From: a virus
IMG/VR virus record: IMGVR_UViG_3300037245_000806
Span: 1-64,000 of that record
Length of the DNA stretch: 64,000 bases
Reading direction: 5' to 3' (one strand)
How positions within the stretch are numbered: position 1 is the first letter of the stretch; every line of letters begins with the position of its first letter. Below, in pieces: positions 4,828-53,316 of the stretch. A program made the position numbers and the translations under genes. The notes under the pieces were generated by a model that worked only from the letters and a program-made list of their open reading frames with translations, was not told the origin of the DNA and made no database searches.

Positions 4828-4870
4828 GTCTTTTTTCCGTACAGGGCGATAAATCTTTCTGGGGGTTTTG

Positions 4871-19307: not shown

Positions 19308-20708
19308 TTAAACGTCAGTGAGGACGATTGTATCCCCAACTGCTACTTCTTCGCCAGTACCAAATCCGTTTCCGACCTCAAGATCGGTCGCAAAGAAGCG
19401 GATGTCCACCTGTGCGGGGAGCACGTCCTCGCCAAGCTGTGCGGCAATGAACTGCTTGAAACGCGCCAACTCAGCCGCAGGGGTCAGCATGCTGATTGGC
19501 TGCCCGCCTGTTTGATTGATGTGCAACGCGATACGGCTGCTCGGAACGTAGTAGTTGTAAATACGCAGCGCGGCACACGCACTATTGAGCCGCCCCATGG
19601 TGAGCAGTAACTCAGGGTCGCCCTCAGGTGCCAGAGGCTTCGCGTCCAGCACCAAGGCGGAAGCGTCTATCGCAGCGACAAGATTATCACGCGTCTCGAA
19701 AGCATCAGCGCCTATCGGTACGGTCACGTCGCCGCCACTCCCGAAGCCGAATGTCACCTGCGTGATGTAGTCATCGACTGTCACCGTCTCGCCGTCGAAT
19801 GGCTGCGCAGCGCCCACGAACTGAAGCCCAATGTGTGGTGCGCGATTACGCGAGCCATGAATCACTTCGATCCAATCGATGCCCTTCTCGCCTGTCAGGT
19901 CATCCTTGTAATTGGCGGGGTTGTCAGGATTCACCCATATCTCAAGGGGGTACCCAGAGTACCCAAGGCTTCGCAGCCGGATGGAGACTGCACGAGCAAG
20001 CCCCTTCTGCTTGAACGTGGGGATTGCGTCACCCACCGTGCGGCGCTGCACTTCCTCAGGCTCAGCCGCGTTGGTCTTGAGTCCGAAGTTCTGTCCGAGC
20101 AACGGCAGCAAGTCCAGCGGGCACAGGTTGGGGTCGATGAACTCGGTCAATGCACGAGCGTCAACCATCCACTCTGTCATCGTCGCGCCCATCAAGCGTG
20201 CGTAGTAATCATAGATGCCGTCTGGATCGAGTGCCGTGAAAGCGGCCTGACCTGCGACGGCACGCTCGGGCCACGTCTTGTACGCCTTCCACACACCGTC
20301 ACGCCAGCGCTGGAAGCCTAGTTCAGTCGGAGCCCCCACGTCATCGAGAGCCACGTGCCAGACCACCTCGAATAGGTAAGGCTCGCGGAATACGTAGACA
20401 ACCGCTGCTTCGTGGAGGGTCTTCGTACCAATGCTGCCCGGCTTCGCGCCCTGATCGTACAGGGGGTCGCCAGCAGTTCCCGCGAAGCTTGGAGACATGA
20501 CGAAATGGCCGTCGATGGGAACGTTGGCTGCGGCAATTGACGTAAGGTTGAGCACGGACATTGAGTTCACAAGGAGGGGCGTACTCGGCCTATAGCCAAT
20601 AGCCTCCTTGCGGTCCTCGGGCGTGTACCGGTTCGCACGCAGCACATGGATCGTGCCTGTGAGGGCCGGATTGATATCGATGGAACCAGACAGGGTGTAG
20701 GTAGCCAC
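19308..20708 (-). CDS. P2 gpI-like baseplate/tail protein with inserted domain
   Basis: 466 residues, GTG start after GGGGG. The middle third (LCPLDLLPLLGQNFGL and the following KGLARAVSIRLRSLGY) fits the phage tail protein I family, which links baseplate wedges to fibres. The C-terminal third carries a beta-rich insert starting DGETVTVDD, related to inserts in the J-like and sheath proteins. Operator site 7 lies just before the start. Confidence 0.7.
   Translation of the reverse strand: MATYTLSGSIDINPALTGTIHVLRANRYTPEDRKEAIGYRPSTPLLVNSMSVLNLTSIAAANVPIDGHFVMSPSFAGTAGDPLYDQGAKPGSIGTKTLHEAAVVYVFREPYLFEVVWHVALDDVGAPTELGFQRWRDGVWKAYKTWPERAVAGQAAFTALDPDGIYDYYARLMGATMTEWMVDARALTEFIDPNLCPLDLLPLLGQNFGLKTNAAEPEEVQRRTVGDAIPTFKQKGLARAVSIRLRSLGYSGYPLEIWVNPDNPANYKDDLTGEKGIDWIEVIHGSRNRAPHIGLQFVGAAQPFDGETVTVDDYITQVTFGFGSGGDVTVPIGADAFETRDNLVAAIDASALVLDAKPLAPEGDPELLLTMGRLNSACAALRIYNYYVPSSRIALHINQTGGQPISMLTPAAELARFKQFIAAQLGEDVLPAQVDIRFFATDLEVGNGFGTGEEVAVGDTIVLTDV
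19555..19835 (-). repeat. Tail inserted domain, copy in the gpI-like protein
   Basis: Protein-level repeat, approximate limits. It runs from FVGAAQPFDGETVTV through a VPIG...A..TRDNLVAAIDAS segment to RLNSACAALRI. It matches the copies in the J-like and sheath proteins in order of motifs. Confidence 0.5.
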
Positions 20709-20724
20709 GTGACCCCCTAGAGCC

Positions 20725-20739
20725 TTAACACAGTGTTAA
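20725..20739. promoter_or_regulatory. Dispersed operator-like palindrome, site 7
   Basis: TTAACACAGTGTTAA, perfectly symmetric and extending to 17 bp (20724-20740). It starts three bases after the stop of the 133-aa gene and lies 17 bases before the GTG of the gpI-like gene. Confidence 0.75.
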
Positions 20740-20742
20740 GCC

Positions 20743-21144
20743 TCAGACGAACCGTACCGCCAAGTCGTCAAGCTCCAATTGATCGCCAGATGCGAGCGTG
20801 ATAGCGCCTGAAAGCTCCCACCACGCGAGGACGTTGCCACTGCCGTCCACAATGTAAGCGCCGCGCACGTTCTCTATTGAGCCACCACCGGCAGTCCACA
20901 CTTGATCGACAAGCGTCACCTTCGAGTTTGTCGCCGCGTAGGTCCAGTTGGCCTCTGTGATCGCGTGGCCACCCGCCGTGTACCCGTTGCCTGTCGGGAC
21001 TTCGTTGAAGCCGCTGCCATCCTTGGCCGGGGTGCTGTCGCCTTTGAAGAGCCGTATAGCCTCCGCAATGCGTGCGATACTGCCGAGGCTCGTGGGGCTC
21101 TTCAGCGTGGCCTCTTCACCCTTGTACGTCAGCGAGTTTGCCAT
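20743..21144 (-). CDS. Minor tail structural protein (133 aa)
   Basis: Beta-rich, beginning MANSLTYKGE, with GGGSIENVRGAYIVDGSG and a final LDDLAVRFV. This resembles small phage proteins that decorate tails or fibres. It sits between the J-like and gpI-like genes. No firm family. Confidence 0.55.
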   Translation of the reverse strand: MANSLTYKGEEATLKSPTSLGSIARIAEAIRLFKGDSTPAKDGSGFNEVPTGNGYTAGGHAITEANWTYAATNSKVTLVDQVWTAGGGSIENVRGAYIVDGSGNVLAWWELSGAITLASGDQLELDDLAVRFV

Positions 21145-21154
21145 CTGCGTCTCC

Positions 21155-23566
21155 TTACACGGTGATAGGTGTGAGGCTCAGCATCAGACGCCGCAAGTTG
21201 ATCGCCTGCACCAGCGACGAGGACGGAATGCCCGAGTCGTAGTATATCTCGTTGTTGTACAGATACGTCTCGTCATAGTACCTGCGCGTCCCGCCAACAG
21301 ACGGAATGTCAATGTCTTGAATGGGCTCGTATGGCGCAACACCACCGTCGCGGAAGAAGTCACCGCCAGTGCCGCCACCGCTCATACCAGCAACGGTGAT
21401 GGACGCGCCGGTCGTCGTCGTGTCCACGTTCCCGACCGAGCCGTCAGTGTTGTTCACGAGGTCAAGTGTCGGGTCGGTAGCTGCGCCATTCACCGTCGCA
21501 GTGATATTCAGGTTGGCCTCAATGGCCGTCTTCAGGGTGGCGAGAGTGGTGTCAGCGTCACCGCCAATAAGAACAGCTATGTTACCCGGAGTCACCCCAC
21601 CGCCATCGTCAAACTCGAATGTCTCAGCATTGACGCCGTCGCCTATCGCGATGGTCTCGCCGTCAGCAGGATTCGTGTCACCATCGAAGACAATGGTCCC
21701 TGACGCGGGCGATGATGGATCGTAAGGGCCTACTGGCCAGTGGTCATCCGAAGGGTCTTGGTCACGGCGGTAATCGATGATCTCAGCTTCAGCCGTGTCA
21801 AGCCCACCGGTCATACCGGTCACTGCCAGCACAGCGCCGGTCTTGAAAATCGCCTTATTCCCGTCAACGCCCGGCGTGTTGTTCAAGAGGTCCAGCGTCG
21901 GGTCAACGGCTGTAGTGTCGATAACAGCCACGACGTTCAGGTAACTGTTGATCGCGATGCGCAGGTTGTCCAGCGTGTCTGCCGCAGTGCCCAGCAAGGG
22001 CACAGCGATATTCCCCGGAATCACACCACCACCATCGTCAAACTCGAAGGTCTTTGCGCCGTTGCCGTCGTCAATGGTAACCGTGTCGCCATTTGCCGGA
22101 TTCACGTCGCCGCTGAAGGTGACGGTACCCGTGGCCGACGCGATGATGAGGTGCTCGAAGACCACACGATCAATATAGAAATAGGAGACCCCGACAGCGT
22201 CACGCACAGCGTTGTACAGTTCCGCGATGCGAATGGTGAACCCGGTGCTCCCCTCGAAGACCGCGATAACGGCTGCGGTGATATTGGCATGCACTTCTGC
22301 CTCAGTGTAGCGTGAGTCGTACCGAACACTGCCCAAGTACACGTCAACAAACGCCATGTCGGGGCGCTCAATCGACGTGAGCGCGCTCGTCATCGTGCGG
22401 GGTGAGATGTATTCCTGAACCTCGCGGATTCGACCGGCGGGCATTGTCGCGTATCGATTGTAAGGCAGCGTGGTCGAGACCGTGTCGTCTTCAGTCTCGG
22501 AGGTGAACTCAAATTCCTCCTCTTCCCACACGTGCAACCGCACGACGTTCGCCGTATACGAAGCGAGCAAGACGTCCGCGTAAGCTAGGACGATGTCAGG
22601 GATGCGTAGCGCCGTTGTCTCGAAGTCCAACAGGCTGAGCGCCTTGTCAACCGTGCGGATGTACGCCGGGATGTTGACGCGAAGATCGTCGAGTGTTTCG
22701 CGGTCTGCGCCGCCCGAAGCGGTACCCGTGGAGTTCGCATAGGTGACGCCAACCGTGCCGAGACCGCCGCCAATGTCAACCTTGATGGAGCCACTGACTG
22801 CGAGGAGGGGCAGGTCACCCGCTTTCCCGCGCGTGGTCTGGTATTCGAGCGTGATCGTGTCCGCAGGTATTGACCCGGCAGCACCGTCACCGAAGACGAT
22901 GTGCAACTTACCGTCGCCGTCGAAATAGACCTCGTATGTTTCGGTCGGGGCGACTTCAAAGGCGACTTTGTCAACCTGCACCCACTCGTTATCGGGGTTG
23001 CCCGCATCGCCCACGAATACGTGCCACGTGCCGTCCGCGACAACACCACTCGCCGAAGCAACCTCCTGACGGGGCTGACTTGAAGGATCGAAGGTCTCCA
23101 CGTAGCTGGTGACTTCCACCAGCGGAAGGGTCGAGTTGGTGTCACCCGACACGATTGTCACGTCTTCCTGAAGCTCGTACCGCAGGTCACCTATCTCGAT
23201 GGCGGAACCGGCGGGCACCGTGCCGCCGTTCGTTTGAAGGCTTGAGGGCAGGGGGTCGGCTATGACGAGCACACTCGATGGTGTCGCCGACCGTGGAACG
23301 TAGCCCACTGCGCGAGCGAAGCGGATTGCGGATTCGTATCGACGCATGGTGGAGAGGAAGAACTCACCCGCCCCGGCGTCCAAGCCGTATGTTATCATGT
23401 CGCCGATGAAGGCATTCAACTCAATCAGCATCTTGCCGAGGTTGCTCTCGAAGAAGTCGGACCACTCGCTGGGGCGCGTGGCCTTCACGAGAGCCTCTAG
23501 CTCAGAGCCTATCGTTGTGAGGTCTCTGGCCGTGAAGCTCAATTGAGGCGCTACTGTTACTGGCAT
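21155..23566 (-). CDS. Baseplate J-like wedge protein with two inserted repeats
   Basis: 803 residues; J-like/gp6-type wedge proteins are usually shorter. Residues 1-450 show the J-like pattern (LIELNAFIGDMITYGLDAGAGE, RFARAVGYVPRSAT, then DLPLLAVSG). Two homologous beta-rich inserts of about 105-110 residues follow (about 478-587 and 622-729). Each starts with DxNPAxGxTxxI, has FEFDDGGG and PGNIAV, and ends GMxGG. The gene follows gp25, the usual order. Confidence 0.8.
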   Translation of the reverse strand: MPVTVAPQLSFTARDLTTIGSELEALVKATRPSEWSDFFESNLGKMLIELNAFIGDMITYGLDAGAGEFFLSTMRRYESAIRFARAVGYVPRSATPSSVLVIADPLPSSLQTNGGTVPAGSAIEIGDLRYELQEDVTIVSGDTNSTLPLVEVTSYVETFDPSSQPRQEVASASGVVADGTWHVFVGDAGNPDNEWVQVDKVAFEVAPTETYEVYFDGDGKLHIVFGDGAAGSIPADTITLEYQTTRGKAGDLPLLAVSGSIKVDIGGGLGTVGVTYANSTGTASGGADRETLDDLRVNIPAYIRTVDKALSLLDFETTALRIPDIVLAYADVLLASYTANVVRLHVWEEEEFEFTSETEDDTVSTTLPYNRYATMPAGRIREVQEYISPRTMTSALTSIERPDMAFVDVYLGSVRYDSRYTEAEVHANITAAVIAVFEGSTGFTIRIAELYNAVRDAVGVSYFYIDRVVFEHLIIASATGTVTFSGDVNPANGDTVTIDDGNGAKTFEFDDGGGVIPGNIAVPLLGTAADTLDNLRIAINSYLNVVAVIDTTAVDPTLDLLNNTPGVDGNKAIFKTGAVLAVTGMTGGLDTAEAEIIDYRRDQDPSDDHWPVGPYDPSSPASGTIVFDGDTNPADGETIAIGDGVNAETFEFDDGGGVTPGNIAVLIGGDADTTLATLKTAIEANLNITATVNGAATDPTLDLVNNTDGSVGNVDTTTTGASITVAGMSGGGTGGDFFRDGGVAPYEPIQDIDIPSVGGTRRYYDETYLYNNEIYYDSGIPSSSLVQAINLRRLMLSLTPITV
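21375..21703 (-). repeat. Tail inserted domain, second copy in the J-like protein
   Basis: Approximate limits, residues about 622-729. Key elements: GDTNPADGETIAI, FEFDDGGGVTPGNIAV, LKTAIEANLNI, TDPTLDLVNN and GMSGGG. Nearly the same order and spacing as the first copy, about 435 bp away. Confidence 0.75.
21797..22134 (-). repeat. Tail inserted domain, first copy in the J-like protein
   Basis: Approximate limits, residues about 478-587. Key elements: GDVNPANGDTVTI, FEFDDGGGVIPGNIAV, LRIAINSYLNV, VDPTLDLLNN and GMTGGLD. Confidence 0.75.
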
Positions 23567-23569
23567 GAC

Positions 23570-23986
23570 TTACTCCCCACTGAGCAACCGAACCTCAGGA
23601 CGATTGTTTACTCGCACAAGGCGAGTCTCGGCTGTTGCATCGCCCGTCAGGTGGAATGTAATACGTAGCTGCAAAACCTTCTCCACTGTCTGGACGATCA
23701 CGCTCTGTACAACCACGTGCGGTACCCAAACTTTTGCGGTGTCAATGATGATGCTTTCCACGAGCGGCTGCTGGCCCTTAGGGTCGGGCTCAAAGAGCAC
23801 CTTGCTGAGCGCGCTGCCAAAGTTACGCTTGCCCGGACGCGAGCCGATTGGCGTGAAGATAGCCAAAAGAAGATCGCCCCACGCGGTGTCATGGGCGCTC
23901 TTAGACGCGAAGTACCCGCCGACCGTGCGGATCGCGGGCAATGCGAGTCCTCTGCGTAACCTCTGTCCTGTGGTCGCGTTCGCCAT
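23570..23986 (-). CDS. gp25/GPW-like baseplate wedge protein
   Basis: 138 residues, the usual family size. The signature GSRPGKRNFGSALSKVLFEP corresponds to the conserved R.G.....FGS.L..LLFEP core of gp25/lysozyme-like wedge proteins. It starts assembly of the baseplate wedge around the hub. Operator site 8 precedes it by 20 bases. Confidence 0.8.
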   Translation of the reverse strand: MANATTGQRLRRGLALPAIRTVGGYFASKSAHDTAWGDLLLAIFTPIGSRPGKRNFGSALSKVLFEPDPKGQQPLVESIIIDTAKVWVPHVVVQSVIVQTVEKVLQLRITFHLTGDATAETRLVRVNNRPEVRLLSGE

Positions 23987-24005
23987 GTAGCTATCCTACT
24001 CACTC

Positions 24006-24020
24006 GTAACACAATGTCAA
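24006..24020. promoter_or_regulatory. Dispersed operator-like palindrome, site 8
   Basis: GTAACACAATGTCAA. On the minus strand its left half is TTGACA, and TAGGAT follows 16 bases on. That pair could be a weak promoter giving a nearly leaderless transcript, but the same AGGAT probably serves as the ribosome binding site. Confidence 0.65.
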
Positions 24021-24021
24021 C

Positions 24022-24561
24022 TCATGAGAGCACGTGAACGTGTGCCGGACCGAACCCTGTCGCCGTTGCCGCGTTCGCCGTCAGATGATCCATGAGCGCC
24101 GTGGCGAATGCGTCCACAAACGGGTCTATCGCTGGCCCGTTCATGGACACCGCCCCTATGATCGCTGACTTCAACCCTGAACCGCTTCCGAACGTGAGCC
24201 CGTGTGCATGTGGCGCGATGCCGTCCTGCACGTCCATCACCGTCGAAGATATCAGATACGATGAAACTGAACCCGCTATGTCGGTTGCAAACTGTGTCGC
24301 CGCACCCGCGTACCCCAAACCCGCCACCGGAGCCGACATCAACGCCGCGACAAGCGTAGTTAGCACGTGAGTATGAGGATACGCTGGTGGCGGCGGGGGA
24401 CCACCGAGGCCCGGTGCCATCACGCCCGCAGCCCACATGGACGCAAAGCCCTGACAGAGGGCGTCGATGTACGCGTAATTCGCTTGGCCCGACAGCCATT
24501 TCCAATCCCCCGGAAAGAGTACAATGGTCTCATCACGCAGGCCTGACGCGCTCACACCCAT
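24022..24561 (-). CDS. Baseplate-region hypothetical protein (179 aa)
   Basis: Glycine/alanine-rich with recurring histidine pairs (PHTHVL, PHAHGL, PAHVHVLS), which could bind metal at a spike tip like PAAR proteins do. The standard PAAR motif is not visible. Located between the gp25-like and spike genes, so probably a spike or hub accessory. Confidence 0.5.
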   Translation of the reverse strand: MGVSASGLRDETIVLFPGDWKWLSGQANYAYIDALCQGFASMWAAGVMAPGLGGPPPPPAYPHTHVLTTLVAALMSAPVAGLGYAGAATQFATDIAGSVSSYLISSTVMDVQDGIAPHAHGLTFGSGSGLKSAIIGAVSMNGPAIDPFVDAFATALMDHLTANAATATGFGPAHVHVLS

Positions 24562-24563
24562 GG

Positions 24564-25268
24564 CTATACCTTCAAATTCTCAGCGCCGCTGAAGGGCGAC
24601 CCTGCAAAGAGGCAGACAGGTATGATCTCATCCGTTAGCACCTTGCCTGAACCCCCGCCAACAACACACTTCGGGTCAATGCTCACCTGACTCGCTGCTT
24701 CAATCTTGACCGCGCCGCCTGACTTCACCGTGGCGTCACCGACTGCCTCCACGGTCGCAGTCCCACCAGCCTTCACGAGCGCATTGCCTTCAGCTTCTAT
24801 CGTAGCCGGGCCACTCACGACCACTTTGAAGCTATTGTCCTCCTGTGAGATGACCAACTCGGCGTCACCAGACTTGATTCTTACGTGAAGCTCGCCTTCC
24901 TTCTCAGACACTTCAATCAGGTTGCCAGCCCGGTCCTTCTTGACCCAGCGCCTGCGGTCTTCAGTGTAATCCTCAGTCTGCTCACTCGGGAGGTCTGACT
25001 TGCCCTTTGGGGCAGCAATCCATCCGCCGACCAGCACCGGCAACTCGCGGTCGCCGCCCTCGAAGTCCACCCACACAAGGTCATCGATCTCGTAGTGCGG
25101 TACATCTCCCCAGCCTCGCCCGGCATGCGTTAGCATCTCAGCCCACGGAAGATGCGCCACAGGTATTGCCTCGTCATGCAGCCGAAGAATACGAACACGG
25201 TAACGTGCCCGCTCTTGGCTGTCGTCCACGGCAACGATAATGGCGCGTTCCAAGCCAACCATGGACAT
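24564..25268 (-). CDS. Baseplate central spike protein (gpV/gp5-like)
   Basis: 234 residues. Residues 1-90 fit the OB-fold of gp5/gpV (VRILRLHDE, LPWAEMLTHAGRGWGD, LVWVDFEGGDRELPVLVGG). Residues about 125-215 contain short alternating repeats ending in GNALVKAGG, DATVKSGG and GAVKIEA, which form the intertwined beta-helix of membrane-piercing spikes. The ATG overlaps the hub gene stop. Confidence 0.85.
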   Translation of the reverse strand: MSMVGLERAIIVAVDDSQERARYRVRILRLHDEAIPVAHLPWAEMLTHAGRGWGDVPHYEIDDLVWVDFEGGDRELPVLVGGWIAAPKGKSDLPSEQTEDYTEDRRRWVKKDRAGNLIEVSEKEGELHVRIKSGDAELVISQEDNSFKVVVSGPATIEAEGNALVKAGGTATVEAVGDATVKSGGAVKIEAASQVSIDPKCVVGGGSGKVLTDEIIPVCLFAGSPFSGAENLKV

Positions 25269-26611
25269 CAGGCACCCCCACGTTGTCGAGTAATTTCGCT
25301 TGACGACGGGATATTGCTTGTACGTATGGTCTTGTTGACAGTTGATCTGGTGGGGGCACGCTGACTCGCGGCTTTATCGGCCTGCGTCTCAGGCTCCTCA
25401 GTCGTCGCGTCTTTCTTGCCAGCGATGCTGCGCTCGCTCTCGTTACGTAGCGCCTTCGGTCCGCTCTGCCGGGTGCCCTCGCGGGTAAGCTCCATTGTGG
25501 TCTTCCAGCCGCCTGAGTCCACTGAATGCGTGATCTCGTACACCTTGAATGTGCCGGAAAGATAGTGAATCTTCCCATCGCTGTTGTAGTAGTTCACGGT
25601 CACATAGTCCATGGGGCTGACTGCGTGCGTGCCGACGACCTCAAGCGTTGCCTTGTACGATTCACGCCGCAGGCGTTGCAGCCGGTACGCTGCCTTCTGT
25701 ACCAACTCCTCCTGATCGCGAGCGTAAATGGGCACCCACGCTTTCATGTCGCCGAGCTGCTCAGAGGTGTATCCCGCATCGGGATACGTTATCTTCTTCG
25801 CGCCGTCCAAGCCGCCAGTGTCGGTACCCTCGGTCTTGATGCTGGTGCCTTCAGCCGAATCGATGCCGACGAACTTCGAGTTGCCTGCGCCGAGCAACCG
25901 CTGCACGAGCGACTCGTCTGAAGGGGCGAAACTGATTACGTTGCCCATCGAGTTGCGCGCGAAGTTATAGACAACGCCAACGTGGTTCAAGAAGCTGTCG
26001 CTATGGAAGTGCGCCTTGTTCTCAGCGTCTATGAAAAAGACAAAGCTCTGCTTGTCAACATTTGCTGTCTTCGGGAGTAGTATCTTCCGTATGAAGGAGA
26101 CATCACTTTCGCCGGTCTGCTGCATCTCGGGGAGCACGCCAACACTGTCTTCAACGACTTCAGCCGTGTCCCAATCACGTTTATCGGCAATGTCATTGAA
26201 TATCTCAGTCGCGGTCATTCCGGCTGGCCACGAACGATTCCGCTTGTCGAGCACCTGCTGTACGACCTTCTCAGCTGCAAGCTCAAGCTGAAGCTCAACA
26301 CCTTGCGCTGTGAACGTCGGGCTATACTTCACCAGCAGGAACGTGAACGAGCGGGAAGTGCTGCGATGATCGTCCCACTTCCACGAGAGCTTGATGAGCT
26401 TGGCCATACCCTGAACAATCAGGAGCTTCTCAAGGTACTCGCCAGCATGATCGAATAGCGAGAGTGTCGCCTGCGGTACGTCCTCATTGGAGAAGCGCAC
26501 CTCAAACGATTGAAGGTAGTCTTGTGTTGGCACTTCGATGACTTCGCCGGTTGCCGACTCGAAGAGGAGCCGAATTGCCATCGATGCCAGAGACCCGTAA
26601 GGGCTAGACAT
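25268..26611 (-). CDS. Tail hub protein (gpD/gp27-like)
   Basis: 447 residues starting MSSPYGSLAS after GAGGG, overlapping the gpX-like gene. The beta-rich N-terminal half has LLVKYSPTFTAQGVELQLELAAE. TATEIFNDIADKRDWDT and the GESDVSFIRKIL segment are typical of gpD-type hubs. It probably forms the trimeric hub that carries the spike. The C-terminal 60 residues are polar and low-complexity. Confidence 0.8.
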   Translation of the reverse strand: MSSPYGSLASMAIRLLFESATGEVIEVPTQDYLQSFEVRFSNEDVPQATLSLFDHAGEYLEKLLIVQGMAKLIKLSWKWDDHRSTSRSFTFLLVKYSPTFTAQGVELQLELAAEKVVQQVLDKRNRSWPAGMTATEIFNDIADKRDWDTAEVVEDSVGVLPEMQQTGESDVSFIRKILLPKTANVDKQSFVFFIDAENKAHFHSDSFLNHVGVVYNFARNSMGNVISFAPSDESLVQRLLGAGNSKFVGIDSAEGTSIKTEGTDTGGLDGAKKITYPDAGYTSEQLGDMKAWVPIYARDQEELVQKAAYRLQRLRRESYKATLEVVGTHAVSPMDYVTVNYYNSDGKIHYLSGTFKVYEITHSVDSGGWKTTMELTREGTRQSGPKALRNESERSIAGKKDATTEEPETQADKAASQRAPTRSTVNKTIRTSNIPSSSEITRQRGGA

Positions 26612-26942
26612 TCGGAACCCTCGCAATATACTCTAGCACAGCCTCGCGAGGCGGTATGAGGATCACTTGACCGCCGCGCATCTCCATCTCAGAGTCAAGG
26701 ATGCCATTGACAAGCGCAATCACCCACCAGAGTTCTTCGTACCCCGGCCCGAAATACTTCACGGCGAGCGCGTCGAGTGCTCCGATCTCGAAGTCACTGA
26801 CGCGATGCTCCCGGTAACCAATGCGGTCCTCAGTGAACTCTATCGGGGCCTCGAAGAGCGCGAATTCCGGGGTACCGAGCACAGACTCGTAGACTGCGGT
26901 GTCCTTGTACCTGCTCAGTTCCGACATGGAGAACGTGGCCAT
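26604..26942 (-). CDS. Tail protein X / gp53-like baseplate protein
   Basis: 112 residues with the compact pattern DALAVKYFGPGYEELWWVIALVNG and GGQVILIPP, typical of LysM-like gpX and gp53 proteins. It sits beside the hub gene, with overlapping start and stop at both ends. Confidence 0.7.
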   Translation of the reverse strand: MATFSMSELSRYKDTAVYESVLGTPEFALFEAPIEFTEDRIGYREHRVSDFEIGALDALAVKYFGPGYEELWWVIALVNGILDSEMEMRGGQVILIPPREAVLEYIARVPNV

Positions 26943-27619
26943 TACCTTCTCATTCCATACGAGTAGTTGTCAATCCGCTCCCGAACAGCCTCGAACGTAC
27001 ACGCCACGTCTGCTGCGTGGGCCAGAAGCGTCTCAGGATCAAAGGGCGGTTGCCATGTTATCTGCACGTCCGTCGCGAGGACGCGGCCCTCAAAGAGACG
27101 CCCCAACGTGAGCATGCATGGGGGAGGAGCGTGCGAAATACCATCAGACCCGGCCCAAGGTTGCTTCAAGGCGTCCAGCCAAAGCGCCGGATGAAAGACC
27201 TCATTCTCCAATACAGCGATTAGCGCCTCACGTTCCGGGTCGTTCACGGGCCTGTCACGTGCGGCGAGCCGGTCAAAACGCTCCCAACGTTTCTCGCGTT
27301 CCGCAGTAAGGCTTAGGCCCTGCGCATGGAACTTGAACACGAGGGAGAACGTGCGATTCCCTGTTCCGGTGTAACTCTTGTACGCCTCAGCACGACCGAT
27401 CACATCGAAGTCAGCGTAGTTCACTGCGCCGCCCTCTTCAAGACCACCTTCGAGGTCCAGCGACAGGAAGGACAGTTTTGTGGGGGCGACGTATGGCTTA
27501 CTCGATATGCTCCCTGAAAAGGCACCAAAGCCCAAGTCCTTGTTAAGCTCGTACCACGTCGGGTCGATACGCAAGGAAATGAGCTTGTCCATCTCGGGAA
27601 TGCTTCTGCGCTCACCCAT
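26942..27619 (-). CDS. Baseplate/tail tube initiator-like protein (225 aa)
   Basis: Encoded directly after the tape measure gene, with a TAATG overlap. Beta-rich, with the segment LTLGRLFEGRVLATDVQITWQPPF near the end, which is common in myovirus hub proteins that connect the tube to the baseplate. The assignment rests mainly on gene order. Confidence 0.55.
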   Translation of the reverse strand: MGERRSIPEMDKLISLRIDPTWYELNKDLGFGAFSGSISSKPYVAPTKLSFLSLDLEGGLEEGGAVNYADFDVIGRAEAYKSYTGTGNRTFSLVFKFHAQGLSLTAEREKRWERFDRLAARDRPVNDPEREALIAVLENEVFHPALWLDALKQPWAGSDGISHAPPPCMLTLGRLFEGRVLATDVQITWQPPFDPETLLAHAADVACTFEAVRERIDNYSYGMRR

Positions 27620-30600
27620 TAGAGGCCCCCGTTTGCAATCGTGGCGACATCAGGGTCTATGCCCTTCGTGCGTGGCCCGGAACGCGTGCCTGCGCCAGCC
27701 ACTCGCACCGGCCTGCCACCCTTAATGGCGGCGACGATCTCAGCAAGTAGCTCATTCGAGCGTATCAACGCATCGTGTACCGGCTTGTCTGAAGTGCTCG
27801 GGTCAAGTTCCATACGCGTCGTCTGTGAAATCTCACCGTGAGCAAGGACCGGTGAACTGAGTTCCTGCCTGAGATTCTTCGCGGTTGACACAGCGGCACG
27901 AATCGCCGCAGCCGTCTTACCGCGCTGCGTGATTATCGACTTGGCGTCCTCGCGAACGTTTCGCAGCATGCCAGCAAGAGCCTTGATGCCAGCCACAGGC
28001 TTGACAAGTCCTGACACCGCCTGCGTAGCTACATCGGAAGTCGTCTTCAGCGTCTCGGCAGTCATGCCGCCGATATTCTGCTTGAGCAACGCCATCTCAC
28101 CCACGATTGAGACGATACCTTTGCGGAAGGGCTCCATGCCTGCCACAATCGTCGTGAGCGCGCCGCTGAATATCCAGCCGTCCTGAAGCGCGCCAATGTT
28201 CTCACCTGTTTCGGCCACAGCAAGCGCGAGCGGGTTAAGCCCACGCACAACCTCTGCGGACACCTTGATCGCATGGATCGCTGCGTCGGCCCCGCCGAGG
28301 CCCTTGTCGAGGAAGAAGAACTCTGCCACGAGGCTGCGAATAACACCCGTTATGCCTGAGGCCTTGCCTGCCAGCGCCGCCATCGGTGAATCGACGCCGA
28401 AGAAGTCCATGATCGACTCCGTGGCCCGGCCAAGGTAAGTCGGCGAGATACTGCGGAGGCTCTGCGTTATCTTGTTGTAGTTGACCGTGAACTCAGCCAC
28501 CGCCTTGACGGTCCCACTCACATTGTCCAGCGCCTTAATCTCCGAGTTGCTGAAGTTGAACTTGGACACGAGCTTGTTCACAGTCCGCTTGATGGACGTC
28601 GTTTGGTCTGAAAGGCTTTCCAGCGGTGACTTCGCACCGAAGCCCCAGAGGATGAGGTCAACTGCTTTGCCAACCATAGCGCCAGCCGCGAGACCCGTGA
28701 TCGTGGCGGCAACCACAGCCAAGCCCGTAATGAACCTTACCGAACCTGTCATCGCCTTGAGCGCCGCGTCGAGCTTCGCCTGATCCACGTTGAACGTGTC
28801 GAGAAGCGTACTGATTATGTTGCCCACGCTACCTGACACACCCGTGGGATTGAGCACCTTCATGGCCCCGGCGAAGAGCATGAAGCCCGGCACTGACAGT
28901 GCGAGCCCTGCGCTGAGGCCGACCACACCCACCCCGATGCCAAGGAACGCTGGACCGATGAGAAGCAGCGATGCTGCCGTAGCGGCAATCTGCCCGGCGC
29001 TCATCGACTTGAACGCGTCAAACATGGGTGTGACTGCTTTACCTATGGCTTCGCCTATCGCCACGATTGCAGGGGCGGCAATACGCGCCATCGCGGCAAC
29101 CGAGAACCCGACACCCACGAGCGCGAGAAGCCCGAGGCCACCCGGACCCATCATGGCTGCGCCGAACGTGGTGAGCGCGGGCGCGAGAGCCGTCAGACCA
29201 GCGGCAAAGCCCGTCAGGAAGCCGCCACCACCCACAGCGCCACCAGCAGCGCCTGCCCCGGTTGCGAGCGTGGTAACGCCAGCGCTCGCCTTCTTGAAGA
29301 CGCCCATCGACGACATCAGATTCTTGCCCACCTTGAGGACGCTGCTGCCAATACCGAATATGAGCCGCTTGCCCGCAATGAGTGACTCAACACCCATCTT
29401 GGCGAGGTATCCCGTAGATACGATCACCTGCGGGTTGAAGTCGTCGAAGAATTCCCCGAGGCGTATCCCGAACTTCTCGGAGAACCAGAGCCCCACGGAA
29501 TCCTTGAATCCGGTCCACGAACCGCGCGTGGCTTGTGACCGCTCAGACAACTCAGCCATACCCTCAGCGACAGGGGCTATCGAGGCACGGAGCTTCTTAG
29601 CCGTGGCGACAATCTGGTCACCGTTCCTCGCGAGGTTCACGAACTGCTCTGCGGTACCCTCAAAATTCAGTGCTTCGAGCACAGGCTTCATGTTCTGCGT
29701 TGTGTCGCCCGCGAACTTGGCCATCCGCTGCGTCATGGCCTCTATGACCTCGACGCCTTGCCCGGAGGCCAGACTGTTACGTAGCTGGTCAACTGTGAGG
29801 CCGGTCAGCTTCGTGAACTGCGGACCGTACTCAGCCGGGTCAGTGAGCGCCTGCGACATTATCTGCGCCATCTCACCGCCGAGTTCACCCCAGTTTTGCG
29901 CGAGCGAGCCTGAGATAAGGGCGAACTGCTCGATCACGCCCTTCTTCATCGCGGGGTCTTTTAGCTCGGACAGGAATGCACCCAAGCCGCCCTCATTGAT
30001 CTGCGACATCATCTTCTCGCGGAACTGCTCGAAGTCGAGTGGCGTCTGCTGCGCGAACCTCCCGAAGGTCGTGAAGGTAGCAGCAATCTCATCGCGCGAA
30101 AGGCCGAAGGCATCGTTGAGCCGGTACATGCTTTCGGCCACACCACCAGCGTCGGTACCAAAGGCCTTGGCGGTCATGGCAGCGAGTGGTGCCATTTCCT
30201 TGAGCACGTCAACGTTTGTCTCACCGGCTTCGGTCATGGCGAGGTACGCACGGCCAACCTCGTCGGCGTTGACCGCGTTACCGTACAGCGCACGAGTATT
30301 TGCGATGAGCGCTTCCGTGGTGCTGTACAGCGTTTCGCGTGTCATGCCAAGCTTCGTGTTGGCTTCAAACATGCTCTCCGACAGGCTCTGCGTAGCATCG
30401 GTGCTTATGCCCACTTGGTCAGCGACTTCCCCGGCGGCGGAACGCACCCCACCAAAAGCCTGTTGCATGGACCCGAGTGCCCGGTGTATCGCCGCGAAGC
30501 GTGTCGGGCCAAGGATTTTCTTGAAGAGGTTACTGAACGTGTCTTCAGCCTCTTCGCCTTCCTCCTGAAACGCCTTGACCTGACCGGTCGCCTTCTTGAG

Positions 30601-31422
30601 CGCCGGGAGGAGCATCTTCTGCATCGACTGCGGCATCTTGGTGAAGTGCTCGCGGGCACCCACGAGGTGAACGTTGAGTGCGTCCATGGCCACGTTGTAC
30701 TTCGACTGCGCCTTGGGGTCGAGCCCAAGCTCCGCGAGGTCTTTGAGCTTCTCGGACGCCGTGGCGATGTTCTCAATGTTGGCCATGGCCTCCGCGAGAC
30801 CCTTACTGACGAACTTCCCCTTCGCCATCGTCTGCAATTCTTTGACGACATCAACAGGCAAGACAGCTTCGCCGGGCGTCAGTAGTGCGAGCACGTCGTC
30901 AATCCCACCGGCACCGGGGACGATACCACCCTTCGCGAACTTGGGGAGCCCCTGAAAGACGCCACGCATGTCGGGTGGCTGCGTCATGTCTTTGTACGCG
31001 GACCTGAGCGCGATGCTCGTGTCGAAAAACTTGTTCCGCTTGAGCGGAATCGTTGCACTGAGCCGAAGGGTTGTCTTGCGGAGAGCTTTCGTGACGGCCA
31101 TCGTAACAGCCCTGCCGATGGACTTCGCGCCCTTCGGCGACAACTCAAGAATGAGCGGTTGCGTGATGGGCTTGACGACTTTCCTGATCTTCGCGAGCGC
31201 CTTGCGATAGCTCGCAGCGGCGGTATTAGGCAGGGCCTCGAAGCTCTTCACCAATCTGGTGAGAGCCCCGAAGCCCTTGTTTGCGGAAGTGTATGCCTGT
31301 GCGTTCCACTTCGTGAGCGACTTGGTGAAACGCTCGTAGTCATTCGACGCACGCTGAAGCTCTGGCGACAGCGTGTTATCCAGCTGTAGGTAGAAGCCGA
31401 TGGCGTCCGCAGCGAAGCTCAT
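27619..31422 (-). CDS. Tail tape measure protein
   Basis: 1,267 residues. Helical over most of its length, with glycine/alanine-rich hydrophobic stretches near residues 720-850 (TAGAA-type helices, LLALVGVGFSVAAMA) that would cross the host membrane on injection. Located between the tail chaperone and baseplate genes, as expected. At roughly 0.15 nm per residue it would set a tail of about 190 nm (rule of thumb, not measured). No peptidoglycan-hydrolase domain was recognised. Operator site 9 lies 12 bases before the start. Confidence 0.85.
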   Translation of the reverse strand: MSFAADAIGFYLQLDNTLSPELQRASNDYERFTKSLTKWNAQAYTSANKGFGALTRLVKSFEALPNTAAASYRKALAKIRKVVKPITQPLILELSPKGAKSIGRAVTMAVTKALRKTTLRLSATIPLKRNKFFDTSIALRSAYKDMTQPPDMRGVFQGLPKFAKGGIVPGAGGIDDVLALLTPGEAVLPVDVVKELQTMAKGKFVSKGLAEAMANIENIATASEKLKDLAELGLDPKAQSKYNVAMDALNVHLVGAREHFTKMPQSMQKMLLPALKKATGQVKAFQEEGEEAEDTFSNLFKKILGPTRFAAIHRALGSMQQAFGGVRSAAGEVADQVGISTDATQSLSESMFEANTKLGMTRETLYSTTEALIANTRALYGNAVNADEVGRAYLAMTEAGETNVDVLKEMAPLAAMTAKAFGTDAGGVAESMYRLNDAFGLSRDEIAATFTTFGRFAQQTPLDFEQFREKMMSQINEGGLGAFLSELKDPAMKKGVIEQFALISGSLAQNWGELGGEMAQIMSQALTDPAEYGPQFTKLTGLTVDQLRNSLASGQGVEVIEAMTQRMAKFAGDTTQNMKPVLEALNFEGTAEQFVNLARNGDQIVATAKKLRASIAPVAEGMAELSERSQATRGSWTGFKDSVGLWFSEKFGIRLGEFFDDFNPQVIVSTGYLAKMGVESLIAGKRLIFGIGSSVLKVGKNLMSSMGVFKKASAGVTTLATGAGAAGGAVGGGGFLTGFAAGLTALAPALTTFGAAMMGPGGLGLLALVGVGFSVAAMARIAAPAIVAIGEAIGKAVTPMFDAFKSMSAGQIAATAASLLLIGPAFLGIGVGVVGLSAGLALSVPGFMLFAGAMKVLNPTGVSGSVGNIISTLLDTFNVDQAKLDAALKAMTGSVRFITGLAVVAATITGLAAGAMVGKAVDLILWGFGAKSPLESLSDQTTSIKRTVNKLVSKFNFSNSEIKALDNVSGTVKAVAEFTVNYNKITQSLRSISPTYLGRATESIMDFFGVDSPMAALAGKASGITGVIRSLVAEFFFLDKGLGGADAAIHAIKVSAEVVRGLNPLALAVAETGENIGALQDGWIFSGALTTIVAGMEPFRKGIVSIVGEMALLKQNIGGMTAETLKTTSDVATQAVSGLVKPVAGIKALAGMLRNVREDAKSIITQRGKTAAAIRAAVSTAKNLRQELSSPVLAHGEISQTTRMELDPSTSDKPVHDALIRSNELLAEIVAAIKGGRPVRVAGAGTRSGPRTKGIDPDVATIANGGL

Positions 31423-31433
31423 CGCTCATCCCC

Positions 31434-31448
31434 GTAACACAGTGTCAA
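31434..31448. promoter_or_regulatory. Dispersed operator-like palindrome, site 9
   Basis: GTAACACAGTGTCAA. It contains the TGA stop of the frameshifted chaperone frame (31445-31447) and lies 12 bases before the tape measure start. Confidence 0.7.
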
Positions 31449-31657
31449 CGCTTCCGCATACTCTGCCTGACCCGCTGATTGTGCTGTTGCTGTGCCTGAT
31501 GCTTCTCCTTCAGTTCGTCATTCAGGCGATTCACATGCCAATTCAGCGTGTCGAGCGTCATTTCACCGATGAAGTCACCGGTGTAGCCATTCCCACAGTT
31601 TAGCAGGAAGTACGTATAGACCCGAAGCGTCTCGGCATCACAGACTGCTTGGCCGAA
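31445..31657 (-). CDS. Downstream (T) frame of the tail chaperone, reached by frameshift
   Basis: An open frame of about 70 codons overlapping the end of the 274-aa chaperone gene. It has no credible start: no good ribosome binding site precedes any ATG or GTG in it. At TTC TTT CGG (31661-31653) the tRNA reading TTT could slip one base forward onto TTC before the slow codon CGG. That would join residue 269 of the chaperone to 69 residues ending in a Q/H/R-rich tail. A -2 slip would reach the same frame. Such fused chaperones are usual just upstream of tape measure genes. Confidence 0.6.
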   Translation of the reverse strand, partial: FGQAVCDAETLRVYTYFLLNCGNGYTGDFIGEMTLDTLNWHVNRLNDELKEKHQAQQQHNQRVRQSMRKR

Positions 31658-32462
31658 AGAACTCGGCGGTGAACGGCATCGCCATCTTGTTGACCGCGCC
31701 ACAACCCCGACACTCAGGGTAGACGGTCAAGTCGATGCCGGGCTCAACGCCCTCCACTTCGATTCTGATCTTCGCGGTATCCGTCGCCGACAACTTGCGG
31801 ACAAACTGCTCGCGCTTATTGAGCTTCACTTCCTCTTCGTCTATCGACACGATCTGAAGCGCGATGCGCAGCAGGTACGACGGGTCAGCTGCGTCCACGG
31901 ACTGAAGCAGCAGACGCTTCGTCCGCTTGACGATGCGCTCCTCGTCGCTGCCCCGCAGGAACCTGAGCTTCAGTTCACTCCCAGAGTCGGGCAGTGTGAT
32001 CGCAATGGGCTCTTCGAGAGTCCAATCCTCAACGTCTTCCCCGGCCTTATCCGCCTTCTCCGCACGCGCGTCGGCGATGGTATCCGGGGTGTTTTCTTCG
32101 AGGTCTTCGAGAATGTTGACCGGCGTGCGCTGCATCTGGCCGCAGTACGCACACTTGTAATCGAAGTTGTAGTTGGGGCCAAACGTGATCGTCCTGAGCG
32201 CCAGCATGGTCGCCATGCGGTCCGTCAGCAGCAGGTCTTCATGCTTGAAGCCGCCGGGAAGCTGGACGCAACTCTTCAGGGTGAGGTTCATCCTGTCGAG
32301 GCCTTGAGCACCCTGCCCAAGCAAAAGTGCCTCCTCGGTGGCCTTGAGCTTCCTGATGCCTATGACACCATCAGGAATGCTGTCCCCGTAGAGGACGCCG
32401 CGAGAAGGCAAATTTGCCGTCGTGTAACCCAATTGCTTCGTATCAGACTGTGCTTCGCCCAT
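31638..32462 (-). CDS. Tail assembly chaperone (T4 gp26/gp51-like)
   Basis: 274 residues. The N-terminal part (LPSRGVLYGDSIPDGVIGIRKLKATEEALLLG) and two cysteine pairs (C104/C107 and C251/C254) fit the T4-type base plate hub/chaperone family, now viewed as tail assembly chaperones. It lies between tube and tape measure. The last codons contain a likely frameshift site. Confidence 0.7.
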   Translation of the reverse strand: MGEAQSDTKQLGYTTANLPSRGVLYGDSIPDGVIGIRKLKATEEALLLGQGAQGLDRMNLTLKSCVQLPGGFKHEDLLLTDRMATMLALRTITFGPNYNFDYKCAYCGQMQRTPVNILEDLEENTPDTIADARAEKADKAGEDVEDWTLEEPIAITLPDSGSELKLRFLRGSDEERIVKRTKRLLLQSVDAADPSYLLRIALQIVSIDEEEVKLNKREQFVRKLSATDTAKIRIEVEGVEPGIDLTVYPECRGCGAVNKMAMPFTAEFFRPSSL

Positions 32463-32544
32463 CTTAATACCCCTTCGCTGAAAGAGGGCCTATACCAACT
32501 CCGACACAATGCCGGAACACACACACATGCATCGTCTCACCTGA

Positions 32545-33066
32545 TTAGGCGAGGACGTTTCCGCCTGCGACCGGGATCGCCTTGTCGATGGTGAGCGTCA
32601 ACGTGATGTTGATCGTGTCCTCACCCGCGAGGTCAACGTCGCCCGGATCGAAGCCCGAAGGCCAGCAACCGATGAGGTCGTACTGGCGGATGAACTCGCC
32701 GTTGGGCGCGTAGAGTTCCGCCCAACCGTTCTTCGCGTACTCCCACTTGAGGCCAATCTTGCCGGTCTCAGGATCATACACGAGCTTGCGCCACGCGTGC
32801 AGGATCGAGGACGTGTTCACAGGGACGTAGTCCTTGTAAAGCACGGACAGGTCGTCGAACGTCGGCAGGCCCGCGAACTTGCGCTTCTCGTTCACGTGCC
32901 CAATCTCGACGATACCGTTCGTCACCTTCGGGAGAGGGAATGACGCCAGCGAGAGCGACAACTCCTCGTCACCCGGAAGATCGGCGAAGTGCAACACAGC
33001 GTTGTTTACGCGCTGCGGCTCCCAGCCCTGCGAACCGACATGGTCTGCTACAAGGGAAATCGGCAT
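32545..33066 (-). CDS. Tail tube protein (gp19-like)
   Basis: 173 residues, close to T4 gp19. The segment VLYKDYVPVNTSSILHAWRKLVYDP, followed by YDLIGCWPSGFDPGDVD, matches tube proteins of the gp19 type. Encoded directly after the sheath gene with a small hairpin between them. Ribosome binding site GGGAGG. Confidence 0.8.
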   Translation of the reverse strand: MPISLVADHVGSQGWEPQRVNNAVLHFADLPGDEELSLSLASFPLPKVTNGIVEIGHVNEKRKFAGLPTFDDLSVLYKDYVPVNTSSILHAWRKLVYDPETGKIGLKWEYAKNGWAELYAPNGEFIRQYDLIGCWPSGFDPGDVDLAGEDTINITLTLTIDKAIPVAGGNVLA

Positions 33067-33094
33067 GTGAGCCTCCCAACCTTCACCGCATCCA

Positions 33095-33110
33095 GAAGCC
33101 TAAAGGCTTC
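33095..33110 (-). terminator. Small hairpin between sheath and tube genes
   Basis: GAAGCC, loop TTTA (minus strand), GGCTTC: a 6-bp stem without a T run. More likely an mRNA processing or stability element than a full terminator. Confidence 0.35.
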
Positions 33111-33124
33111 GCCTCATCGCGTCG

Positions 33125-35428
33125 TTACTCCGAGAATTCTACCCCGGAGGCGAAGACCGCGAAGTCCATCTCAATGCCCTCAGCGCCGGGCGTCGGCGTA
33201 AGGTAAAGCTTGCCCTTCATCGACCGCCTGCGCCGCAACGTCGGCGGGTTCGTAGTGCCGTCACACACGACCTTGAACGACTCCAAACCCCGCTGGGCCG
33301 CGATGTCCCCGAGGTGCTTGTTGCAGACCGTCTGGAACTTCTTCCACGTCGTCGGGTCATTCGGCTCGAAGACCAGATACTTCACGGACGTGGCGCAGAG
33401 CTTCTCGGCGCGCAGGAGCAAGCGGCGCACATGCACGTCGGTCAGCTGAGACCACTTCCTCTGAAGCGTCCGGTTGCCGAAGAGCGTCGGCCCCTGCCCC
33501 ACGAAGTCCACGATGGGGTTGACGCGGTTGTCGCCCGTGAAGATCGGGCACATCTCGTCGCGGTCGTCCTGCGACGGACTGTACTCGACGGCATCCGAAT
33601 CGATGATACCCCGGTTGTGTCCGGCGGCGGGGAACCATGGCGCGGCCACGCGGTCGGTGTACGCGAACCGTGCAGCGACGTAGCCGGATGTCGGCAGCCA
33701 GATGTTCTGCTTGTTGTACTCGTCGTACACACGCGACCACGACCACGTGAAGGTACCGTAACTCGTGTCGAGCGCGACGAGCGGTGCCTCCGGGTCAGTG
33801 GCGAGATCGCCGTTGTGCCAGTCAATCGCCTCGGCCTTGGTGAGCCCGAAGGGGGCGTCCACAAGGCAGATGCTGTCGAGGCGCTTTTCCGCCGTGGCAA
33901 TCATCTCGTTCACCACGTCGCGATGGCTGACGCCCGGCACCGCGAGGACGTTGAACTCGATGGACTCGTTGTTCTGCACGGCCTTGAGGCCGGTCGCAGA
34001 CGTGCCCGAGATCGTGCCGACGTAGTCGGCGGTCGTGAGGCCGGTGATACCATTGCGACCCTCAGTTGCGGGTGACGTGCCGAGTTGGTACGTGGCATTC
34101 GTCGGGGTACCATCGGTGATGACGTCCAGAGTGATGTACTCCGACGGATCGACCTCGTTCAAGATGCCTTCCTCGATGACCTTCTCGGCGTAGCGTTCTG
34201 AGGCCGGGTCGAGTACGAGGTTCACGAAACGCTCGACAATCGCGCGGGCACCACTCTTGTCCACCACGGCCTCGACGACGAGGTCGAAGGCGTCCACGGG
34301 CGCATTGAGGGCGCTCGTGTCGCTGATGATAACGGAAACGTTGTTATTCGCCCACGTCCCCGGCGTTGCCGCAACTGCGTCCATCAACGGAATGACGCCG
34401 CCCGGTATGGCGTCCACACCACCGGTCAGACCGACCGTCCCGATGTTCACGCCGTCAGTGACGAGCACTGCATTGCCGTCGATGCCGCCGGTCTTGTGCG
34501 TCACGTCCATCTGAGGAATCGTGACAGTGCCGTCCGCAACGTTCACGTCAACGCTCGTGAGCGCAATGGCGGCGATGAGGTTGGTCAGCGTCTCGGCAGC
34601 ATCCGTGCCAATGAGGACGGGCACGTTGCCGGGGAGATAGCTGGCGTTGTCGTCGAACTCGAAGGTGTACTTGTGTGTATTCGCGTAGTTCACGCTGCTG
34701 ACGTTGAACGCCTCGCCGTTGATCGCAGCGTGGAGCGCGGCCATCGCCTCGTAAGGATCGGTGATGCCCGTGATGTCCACCCACACCTCGGTGACGGGGT
34801 CAACCGTGTTGAACTCGAAGGTGGTCGGCGTCACGCCATCGGAGACAATGACTTGGTCACCAGACAGAGGCATGGCGCTGCCAATGAGCTTGAGCGTGCC
34901 GACCGCAGGATGTGTCGGGTCGCCACCGTCCATGCCAGTTGCGGCGATGCGCGCACCACCGACAGGCACCGAGAGCGCCACGTTACCGAGCGCACCGTCG
35001 TTGTCATTCTCAAGGTTAAGCTGCGGCACCGTGTCGTGGATGGTGACGGTCTCACCGTCACTCGGGTTCGTGGACGCGGTGAACGAAACGTTACCGCTGG
35101 CGTCAACTGCTGCCACGCCCGCCGAAGGCCCGTTGATCTCTACCTCAGCGCTCGCCACGCCGGTGACAGGAGTCTTGTCGGCGACACGCGTGTAGATCAG
35201 CTGGTCGCCCTCCTTGAGGTATTGAATCGCGGCCTGAAGGCCGTAGTCAGTCACGAGGGGTGCGCCGAACTTTTCGATGAGTTCCGGCTCATTGGTAACG
35301 AGCGTCGGGGTATCGACTGGCCCCTTCGTCGCGCCGCCAAGAGCACAGAAGCGCGTGAGGCCCAGCTGCGCAGCGTACTCGGAGAAGTCCAACTCATTAA
35401 CACGAACGCCTGCACTCAGGATAGCCAT
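33125..35428 (-). CDS. Tail sheath protein with inserted domains
   Basis: 767 residues. The N-terminus (VRVNELDFSEYAAQLGLTRFCALGGATKGPVDTP) and the C-terminal half (NRTLQRKWSQLTDVHVRRLLLRAEK and KGKLYLTPTPGAEGIEMDFAVF) are typical of contractile sheaths. Between about residues 110 and 340 are beta-rich copies of the domain also seen in the J-like protein. These inserts would sit on the outer surface of the sheath (inference). Confidence 0.85.
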   Translation of the reverse strand: MAILSAGVRVNELDFSEYAAQLGLTRFCALGGATKGPVDTPTLVTNEPELIEKFGAPLVTDYGLQAAIQYLKEGDQLIYTRVADKTPVTGVASAEVEINGPSAGVAAVDASGNVSFTASTNPSDGETVTIHDTVPQLNLENDNDGALGNVALSVPVGGARIAATGMDGGDPTHPAVGTLKLIGSAMPLSGDQVIVSDGVTPTTFEFNTVDPVTEVWVDITGITDPYEAMAALHAAINGEAFNVSSVNYANTHKYTFEFDDNASYLPGNVPVLIGTDAAETLTNLIAAIALTSVDVNVADGTVTIPQMDVTHKTGGIDGNAVLVTDGVNIGTVGLTGGVDAIPGGVIPLMDAVAATPGTWANNNVSVIISDTSALNAPVDAFDLVVEAVVDKSGARAIVERFVNLVLDPASERYAEKVIEEGILNEVDPSEYITLDVITDGTPTNATYQLGTSPATEGRNGITGLTTADYVGTISGTSATGLKAVQNNESIEFNVLAVPGVSHRDVVNEMIATAEKRLDSICLVDAPFGLTKAEAIDWHNGDLATDPEAPLVALDTSYGTFTWSWSRVYDEYNKQNIWLPTSGYVAARFAYTDRVAAPWFPAAGHNRGIIDSDAVEYSPSQDDRDEMCPIFTGDNRVNPIVDFVGQGPTLFGNRTLQRKWSQLTDVHVRRLLLRAEKLCATSVKYLVFEPNDPTTWKKFQTVCNKHLGDIAAQRGLESFKVVCDGTTNPPTLRRRRSMKGKLYLTPTPGAEGIEMDFAVFASGVEFSE
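34410..35100 (-). repeat. Tail inserted domain, two or three copies in the sheath
   Basis: Approximate limits. One partial copy joins STNPSDGETVTI to ALGNVALSVPVGG and GMDGG. The following stretch repeats SGDQVIVSDG, FEFNT and FEFDDNASYLPGNVPV, then LTNLIAAIA, GIDGNAVLV and GLTGGVD. The order of motifs is the same as in the J-like copies. Confidence 0.65.
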
Positions 35429-41730: not shown

Positions 41731-41758
41731 AGCCTAACTCCCTTTTCCTTGACGTTTC

Positions 41759-53305: not shown

Positions 53306-53316
53306 AATTAGCCCTC

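Follow-up and report, generated by a model that had tools for sequence, protein, structure and literature searches.

In the window, that is, the 64,000-nucleotide stretch of viral DNA analyzed here (positions 1 to 64,000 of IMG/VR record IMGVR_UViG_3300037245_000806), a beta-rich domain of 112–113 residues was found in three tail proteins: a J-like baseplate wedge protein, a gpI-like tail protein, and the tail sheath protein. In the sheath, one copy appears to be split in the loop between its second and third strands, and a second copy of the same domain, whose strands follow a circularly permuted order, appears to occupy the split. The best explanation overall, to which I assign a probability of about 0.6, is that a beta-sandwich decoration domain is nested in itself in the sheath and forms a rigid structural arm pointing outward. 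A broader proposal is also rather probable: the sheaths of one phage clade may lengthen their outer arms by self-nesting, up to three levels deep and in two alternative loops depending on the lineage, to give graded arms resembling Russian dolls, with the inner copy permuted in the lineage of the window. Since the window encodes a Gp23-like major capsid protein and a Peptidase_S77 prohead protease of the prohead-core type (40219–43378), the virus is regarded as a T4-like contractile phage.

A domain shared by three tail proteins

The carriers and the copies outside the sheath are as follows.

21155–23566, minus strand: J-like baseplate wedge protein, 803 amino acids, carrying the domain twice in tandem within its C-terminal part
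21803–22141, minus strand: domain copy J1, complete, J-like residues 476–588
21374–21712, minus strand: domain copy J2, complete, J-like residues 619–731
19308–20708, minus strand: gpI-like tail protein, 466 amino acids, matching Pfam Tail_P2_I at residues 184–264 (E 2.2e-10)
19596–19826, minus strand: diverged gpI-like domain copy, lying downstream of Tail_P2_I and supported at profile positions 7–87
33125–35428, minus strand: tail sheath protein, 767 amino acids, with the nested insert at residues ~95–345

The J-like protein matches Pfam Baseplate_J (E 1.1e-4) and the baseplate wedge family PHROG 219 (E 3.6e-21). The sheath protein matches the tail sheath family PHROG 23 over residues 2–767 (E 3.5e-68) and Pfam Phage_sheath_1C above the cutoff (E 3.1e-6), and by these two matches both the N-terminal and the C-terminal parts of the sheath core are present.

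J1 and J2 are 56% identical across 111 residues. By BLAST, they match the sheath with E-values of 8e-17 and 6e-16, respectively, and the gpI-like copy was detected with E-values from 4e-8 to 5e-4 over its initial ~60–70 residues; these values are optimistic because the composition correction was off and the database size was set to 50,000. A two-row profile of J1 and J2 was searched against the entire 143,033-base record and found seven places, all within the J-like, sheath, and gpI-like genes. Besides the J copies themselves, the E-values were 1e-14 for the sheath, 1e-8 for the gpI-like copy, and 5e-7, 1e-4, and 0.004 for other pieces of the sheath. A 41-row profile found the identical seven places and none additional. 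Chance or low complexity as the source of the similarity was ruled out by this whole-record search and by the shuffle tests described below.

The sequence-only reading that preceded this study had proposed a domain of about 105–110 residues, present twice in the J-like protein, two or three times in the sheath, and once, more diverged, in the gpI-like protein. The three carriers and the order of the motifs (from NPxxGxTVTI to GMxGG) were confirmed, while the domain turned out to be slightly longer. The gpI-like copy is indeed present and diverged, with support for only its first ~80 residues, or two thirds. The profile search within the genome, which had been suggested as a check, revealed significant similarity among the copies.

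Probable nesting of two domains in the sheath

The sheath insert was resolved into four segments, which are read as follows.

35030–35104, minus strand: N1, strands 1–2 of the outer domain, sheath residues 109–133, part-profile score 25.9, model strands E25–33 and E44–48
34922–35029, minus strand: C', strands 6–8 of the inner permuted domain, sheath residues 134–169, part-profile score 13.4
34685–34915, minus strand: N', strands 1–5 and the helix of the inner domain, sheath residues 172–248, part-profile score 43.2
34418–34681, minus strand: C1, strands 3–8 and the helix completing the outer domain, sheath residues 250–337, part-profile score 73.2

The part-profiles were trained on 42 complete domains with all permuted-type sheaths excluded; their column frame came from an earlier round that included permuted sheaths, which introduces a mild circularity. 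N1, C', N', and C1 were recovered in that order in the window sheath, and none of 2000 shuffled inserts equaled any of the scores. All four segments were recovered likewise in two related sheaths (L021 and L040; the related loci are given as L numbers). The segments are complementary, as profile positions 2–25 go with 27–113 in the outer domain and 81–113 with 2–~78 in the inner one. N1 and C1 together appear to make up exactly one domain, and C' and N' appear to make up exactly one more, in circularly permuted order. The two or three sheath copies counted in the sequence-only reading correspond to the three stretches that HMMER gives in the window sheath; with a fourth, weak one (C', E 0.004 and 0.009 in the whole-record profile searches), they amount to two complete domains, not three. 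Three separate sheath copies were discarded as an interpretation, since two complete nested domains fit better, and the rival routes to the same arrangement are weighed below.

A structure was predicted for sheath residues 84–352 from 13 rows, namely the window, four permuted-type homologues (one of them truncated), and separate N1 and C1 fragments, whose rows do not connect the two halves. All strands are formed in the model (pLDDT 82.6, pTM 0.74). VIA-align placed model residues 25..254 (sheath 108..337) on 103 contiguous residues of the flagellin chains 3k8v_A and 2zbi_B, with 87 residues aligned at 2.9–3.0 Å; for the single J2 model on the identical flagellin stretch, the figures were 88 residues and 3.1 Å. 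Since the range 25..254 falls on one flagellin domain, one domain of the model is made up of the first hairpin together with the last segment, with the middle skipped. The D2-D3 part of a FliD crystal structure was aligned along nearly the entire two-domain insert (120–124 residues, 4.4–7.5 Å).

Proposed nesting depth in related sheaths

Is the nesting limited to this sheath? Judged from the sequences of its relatives, the same sheath site carries zero, one, two, or three nesting levels. With N for the hairpin, F for a complete domain, and C for the remainder, the arrangements at the site are as follows.

L029, L080: a single complete domain (F)
L015: hairpin, domain, remainder (N F C), cuts 2–29/25–113
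L016, L019, L075: N N F C C, with the cut between strands 2 and 3 (in L019, the second hairpin had no profile match and was placed by eye)
L037, L077, L078: N N F C C, with the cut following strand 3
Window, L021, L040, L094, L073 (interrupted by the contig end): permuted type

The cuts are complementary also in L037 (2–39/37–113 and 2–37/37–113) and L077 (2–35/36–113 and 1–40/39–113). The sheath of L009 runs continuously across the insertion site. In total, 81 sheaths were compared (85 sheath reading frames minus three re-fetches of the window's own and one second piece of L076), 14 of which have clear copies; two more (L088 and L093) have a weak partial copy. A tree of the sheath core was built with 41 of the 85 rows, the rest being dropped as repeats or for low core-profile coverage, while L073 was retained despite its low coverage. 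All 14 clear domain-bearing sheaths form one branch with a support of 100/100. The permuted type is not a single branch; L015 and the sheaths of the N N F C C type are interspersed.

Domains of proteins are mostly multiplied in a head-to-tail fashion. If the nested reading is true, the relatives with zero to three levels at one site would be a natural record of a domain growing inside itself while the surrounding machine still contracts. Nesting of unlike domains is known from T4 gp18 and flagellin. A literature search on the nesting, the permutation, and the relations of the domain found no description within its coverage, outside which most subscription journals lie.

Fold and comparison with known systems

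The J2 copy was modeled with AlphaFold2 from 41 diverse rows (pLDDT 97.6, pTM 0.90) and has eight strands and one main helix. The first Foldseek match in the PDB was FliD (E 4.7e-3, TM 0.55), and the sheath of the Agrobacterium phage Milano was also matched (E 1.9e-2). The best VIA-align match was the A-1(L) sheath at residues 93–186 (Z 9.2, 90 residues aligned, 2.8 Å), with further sheath matches to Sf14 (80–183, Z 8.7), Mu (102–213, Z 7.8), and Milano (94–200, Z 7.4), and flagellar matches to FliD (Z 7.4), a surface flagellin (176–277, Z 7.0), and Vibrio FlaA (Z 6.5). T7-type tail nozzles are also among the rows, and fold families missing from the VIA-align lists were not counted as evidence. 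In a library of predicted viral structures, 15 matches are below 0.001; one of the proteins is J-like, and others are a major tail protein and a major capsid protein.

Sequence comparison points to the same two groups. Residues 117–172 of the Milano sheath were matched at E 0.0036. The sheath family PHROG 165 was matched by 10 of 41 family members at profile positions 103–207 (best E 1e-5), J2 itself being without a match. Flagellin_IN (PF07196) was matched by five of the 41 members (best E 6.3e-5); when ten members were scanned singly, one exceeded the Pfam cutoff (L043, 23.5 vs 22.7 bits). The window proteins (E ≤ 1) and copy J2 did not match Flagellin_IN. The profile of J1 and J2 matched only designed proteins among the PDB sequences (E 3.4–8). 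The fold is probably of a known type, that of the outer "extension" domain of sheaths and the outer domains of the flagellar cap and flagellin, with weak but consistent support from sequence. The structure prediction that the sequence-only reading had suggested thus gave, for the J2 model, the fold of the extension domain of solved sheaths.

In the part of the Milano report that deals with the sheath, the sheath extension domain of gp20 (residues 91–203) is external in the solved structure (PMC10811340). The window insert resembles it in its place in the sheath chain (~95–345) and in its predicted fold, and the sequence match at 117–172 lies inside the extension domain. The outer domains of the Mu gp39, A-1(L), Sf14, and E217 sheaths are likewise similar in place and predicted fold. 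Matches to Milano-type sheaths cover one domain, whereas the window sheath has two nested copies with the inner one permuted. The insertion domain of the Vibrio phage XM1 sheath was likened to FliD D3 by the authors, so that, in the section concerned, the kinship between sheath and flagellar cap is already published for one phage on the basis of structure (PMC10457771). Here, in contrast, sequence profiles connect sheath, wedge, gpI-like, and flagellin-type proteins; this would be a sequence-level tie between phage sheath decoration and the outer domains of flagellar cap and flagellin. The likeness to Flagellin_IN, FliD D2-D3, and flagellin D2 consists of the five Pfam matches and the top structural rows, while the window proteins themselves are unmatched.

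Evseev et al. (2022) described, in the sections concerned, extra and often Ig-like sheath domains outside the core, some of them built from two regions of the chain, and proposed adhesion or stability as their role (PMC9230969). Their type 3 multi-domain sheaths are similar in having added outer domains, some nested, and those sections of the paper contain neither nesting within one family nor circular permutation. The promiscuous Ig-like domains of phages, reported by Fraser et al. (2006), are similar in that one mobile beta-domain occurs across many structural proteins. In contrast, the three window proteins match no Ig-like Pfam family at E ≤ 1, an absence that excludes little.

Probable position and role of the arm

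In the proposed explanation, the domain would be a beta-sandwich of the sheath-extension and flagellar-cap type (FliD D2-D3, Flagellin_IN) that serves as a modular outer decoration on a contractile tail. The arm probably lies outside the contracting core because it is homologous to the domains of solved sheaths; the outer position assumed in the sequence-only reading is supported by analogy, as place and predicted fold equal those of the extension domain (seen in the sheath part of PMC10811340). Each nesting level would be linked to the level beneath through two chain crossings, and so the stack should be a rather rigid arm pointing off the tube, outside the parts that contract. The tandem pair of the J-like protein and the single gpI-like copy would similarly decorate or brace the edge of the baseplate.

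The sequence-only reading, in accord with one of the proposals of Evseev et al., had suggested that the domain binds weakly to host surfaces; such a module would bind surface sugars and concentrate phages on cells. I consider this doubtful. The domain also occurs in a flagellin and, in many copies, in giant proteins of Planctomycetes, and adhesion is proposed for Ig-like sheath domains in the relevant part of PMC9230969, where stabilization is suggested equally. The arm evolves no faster than the core in the closest complete relative: between the window and L021, identity is 63–64% in the core and 66–78% in the arm. With the conservation of arm and core about equal there, the arm shows no sign of being a fast-changing host-binding adhesin, and conservation weakly favors a structural arm. 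Sheaths with graded arm lengths would allow tests of the roles of outer domains (stability, spacing, adhesion), which are unsettled in the sections of PMC9230969 concerned.

Several observations weigh against a nested, structural arm. In L094, three segments were recovered and the piece of strands 6–8 is weak, with 12 of 2000 shuffles scoring as high. The insert model is based on only 13 rows, among which the complete homologues do extend across the two halves of the outer domain, and I infer which middle residues are skipped on flagellin from an aligner that gives only the ends of the range. For the rows of the inner domain (model 48..165), Z is no higher than 3.8, with unrelated beta-sandwiches as the partners; the sequential aligner cannot match a permuted order. 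For the J2 model, Foldseek found no match under E 0.001 in the PDB, and most VIA-align Z values are 6–9, while according to the tool's warning a Z below 8 may reflect merely a common arrangement. Arm identity is near to or below that of the core in L094 and L040; for N' it is 35% (L040) and 47% (L094), compared with 53% and 54%, respectively, for the C-terminal core. Finally, the outward position in this virion, the rigidity, and the structural (spacing, bracing, or stabilizing) rather than receptor role are inferred.

Possible routes to the arrangement

The first hairpin and the C-terminal part might have been amplified separately (N N N C C C), with no genuine insertion and with the pairing nested or crossed. 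The N N F C C sheaths do have every N part first and every C part last, and the C parts of each level tend toward branches of their own in a domain tree with 73 units, which has too few columns to separate this route from nested insertion. The numbers of N and C parts are equal in the complete examples (1/1, 2/2, and 3/3, with one N part of L019 assigned by eye), and the permuted inner copy is left unexplained, so that I regard separate amplification as unlikely. More unlikely still are three tandem domains eroded by deletion without nested pairing (the first losing its middle, the second its end, the third its start): such a history could be written as N1 C' N' C1 and HMMER gives three stretches, but the pieces are exact complements, complementary cuts recur in L037, L077, and L015, and the insert model forms all strands with an outer range spanning 25..254.

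History of the copies

In the 73-unit tree, the window J copies join J copies of L010 and L027, the last sheath segment clusters with its counterparts in L021, L073, L094, and L016, and the gpI-like copy joins L031 (support 88); the supports for the groupings of the window copies are 88–94, from few columns. Third codon positions of J1 and J2 are 43% identical and 57% different. As copies from different phages cluster according to the protein that carries them, not according to genome, and the third codon positions of J1 and J2 have diverged, the placements should be old. By these comparisons, the copies are older than the split of these phages, and the domain is one that has been mobile over long times and has not recently spread within this genome. 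The J-like proteins of L014 and L027 have J1 and lack J2 with continuous flanks, that is, an empty site. Thus, of the duplication and insertion within one genome suggested in the sequence-only reading, insertion is upheld by this empty site and by the continuous sheath of L009, while spread inside this genome is not supported by the tree and the third codon positions.

Other carriers of the domain

A single-protein scan of viral contigs found no relatives with J2 as the query and five loci with the sheath. Among these, L008 is a near-identical contig, L009 has a 41–43% identical sheath without the insert, and L010 is a related phage with both copies in its J-like protein. On the contig of L009, a J-like protein (L024:5227–7326) has two copies near residue 150, at a site unlike that of the window, while the sheath has none. 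A search with a five-row alignment gave 39 viral loci and 20 loci in bacterial genomes, and four profile rounds gave 224 stretches in the fetched DNA, a number that includes overlapping or repeated loci.

Of 20 viral carriers, 13 matched a PHROG family at E ≤ 0.001, and these included sheaths and J-like wedges as well as a minor tail protein, a tail collar/fiber protein, and a head-tail adaptor; seven (L018, L023, L025, L030, L026, L038, and L043) had no match at this threshold. The head-tail adaptor protein (PHROG 477) carries the domain at L044:894–1790. A flagellin in a Piscirickettsiaceae metagenome-assembled genome (L054:5338–6597) has the domain at residues 223–326, between the N- and C-terminal flagellin domains. 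Very long proteins, mostly of Planctomycetes, have many copies each (L055–L060 and L062–L071), with 13 stretches in one frame in L068 (an unclassified bacterium) and L065 (a Planctomycete).

Among named phages, J2 matched only the tail tube/minor tail protein of Caulobacter phage CcrColossus, which is present in two records (36% identity, E 0.6), and the nested inserts of L016 and L037 matched nothing at E ≤ 0.01 among 50,697 phage records. Matches of the whole J-like protein to named phages are confined to its first ~465 residues (best 60 of 142).

Other genes in the window

A 133-amino-acid protein is encoded between the J-like and gpI-like genes (20743–21144) and has a sub-threshold match to the podophage fiber protein gp80 (E 0.0048). 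At 45554–53323, a giant gene encodes a 2589-residue protein whose single recognizable part is a NUDIX domain at residues 1147–1214 (E 1.8e-10). It is adjoined by a gene for an N6/N4-type DNA methylase (53354–54571, E 2.7e-23). The gene at 2990–4921 encodes a Crp-like helix-turn-helix domain fused with a DEAD-box helicase.

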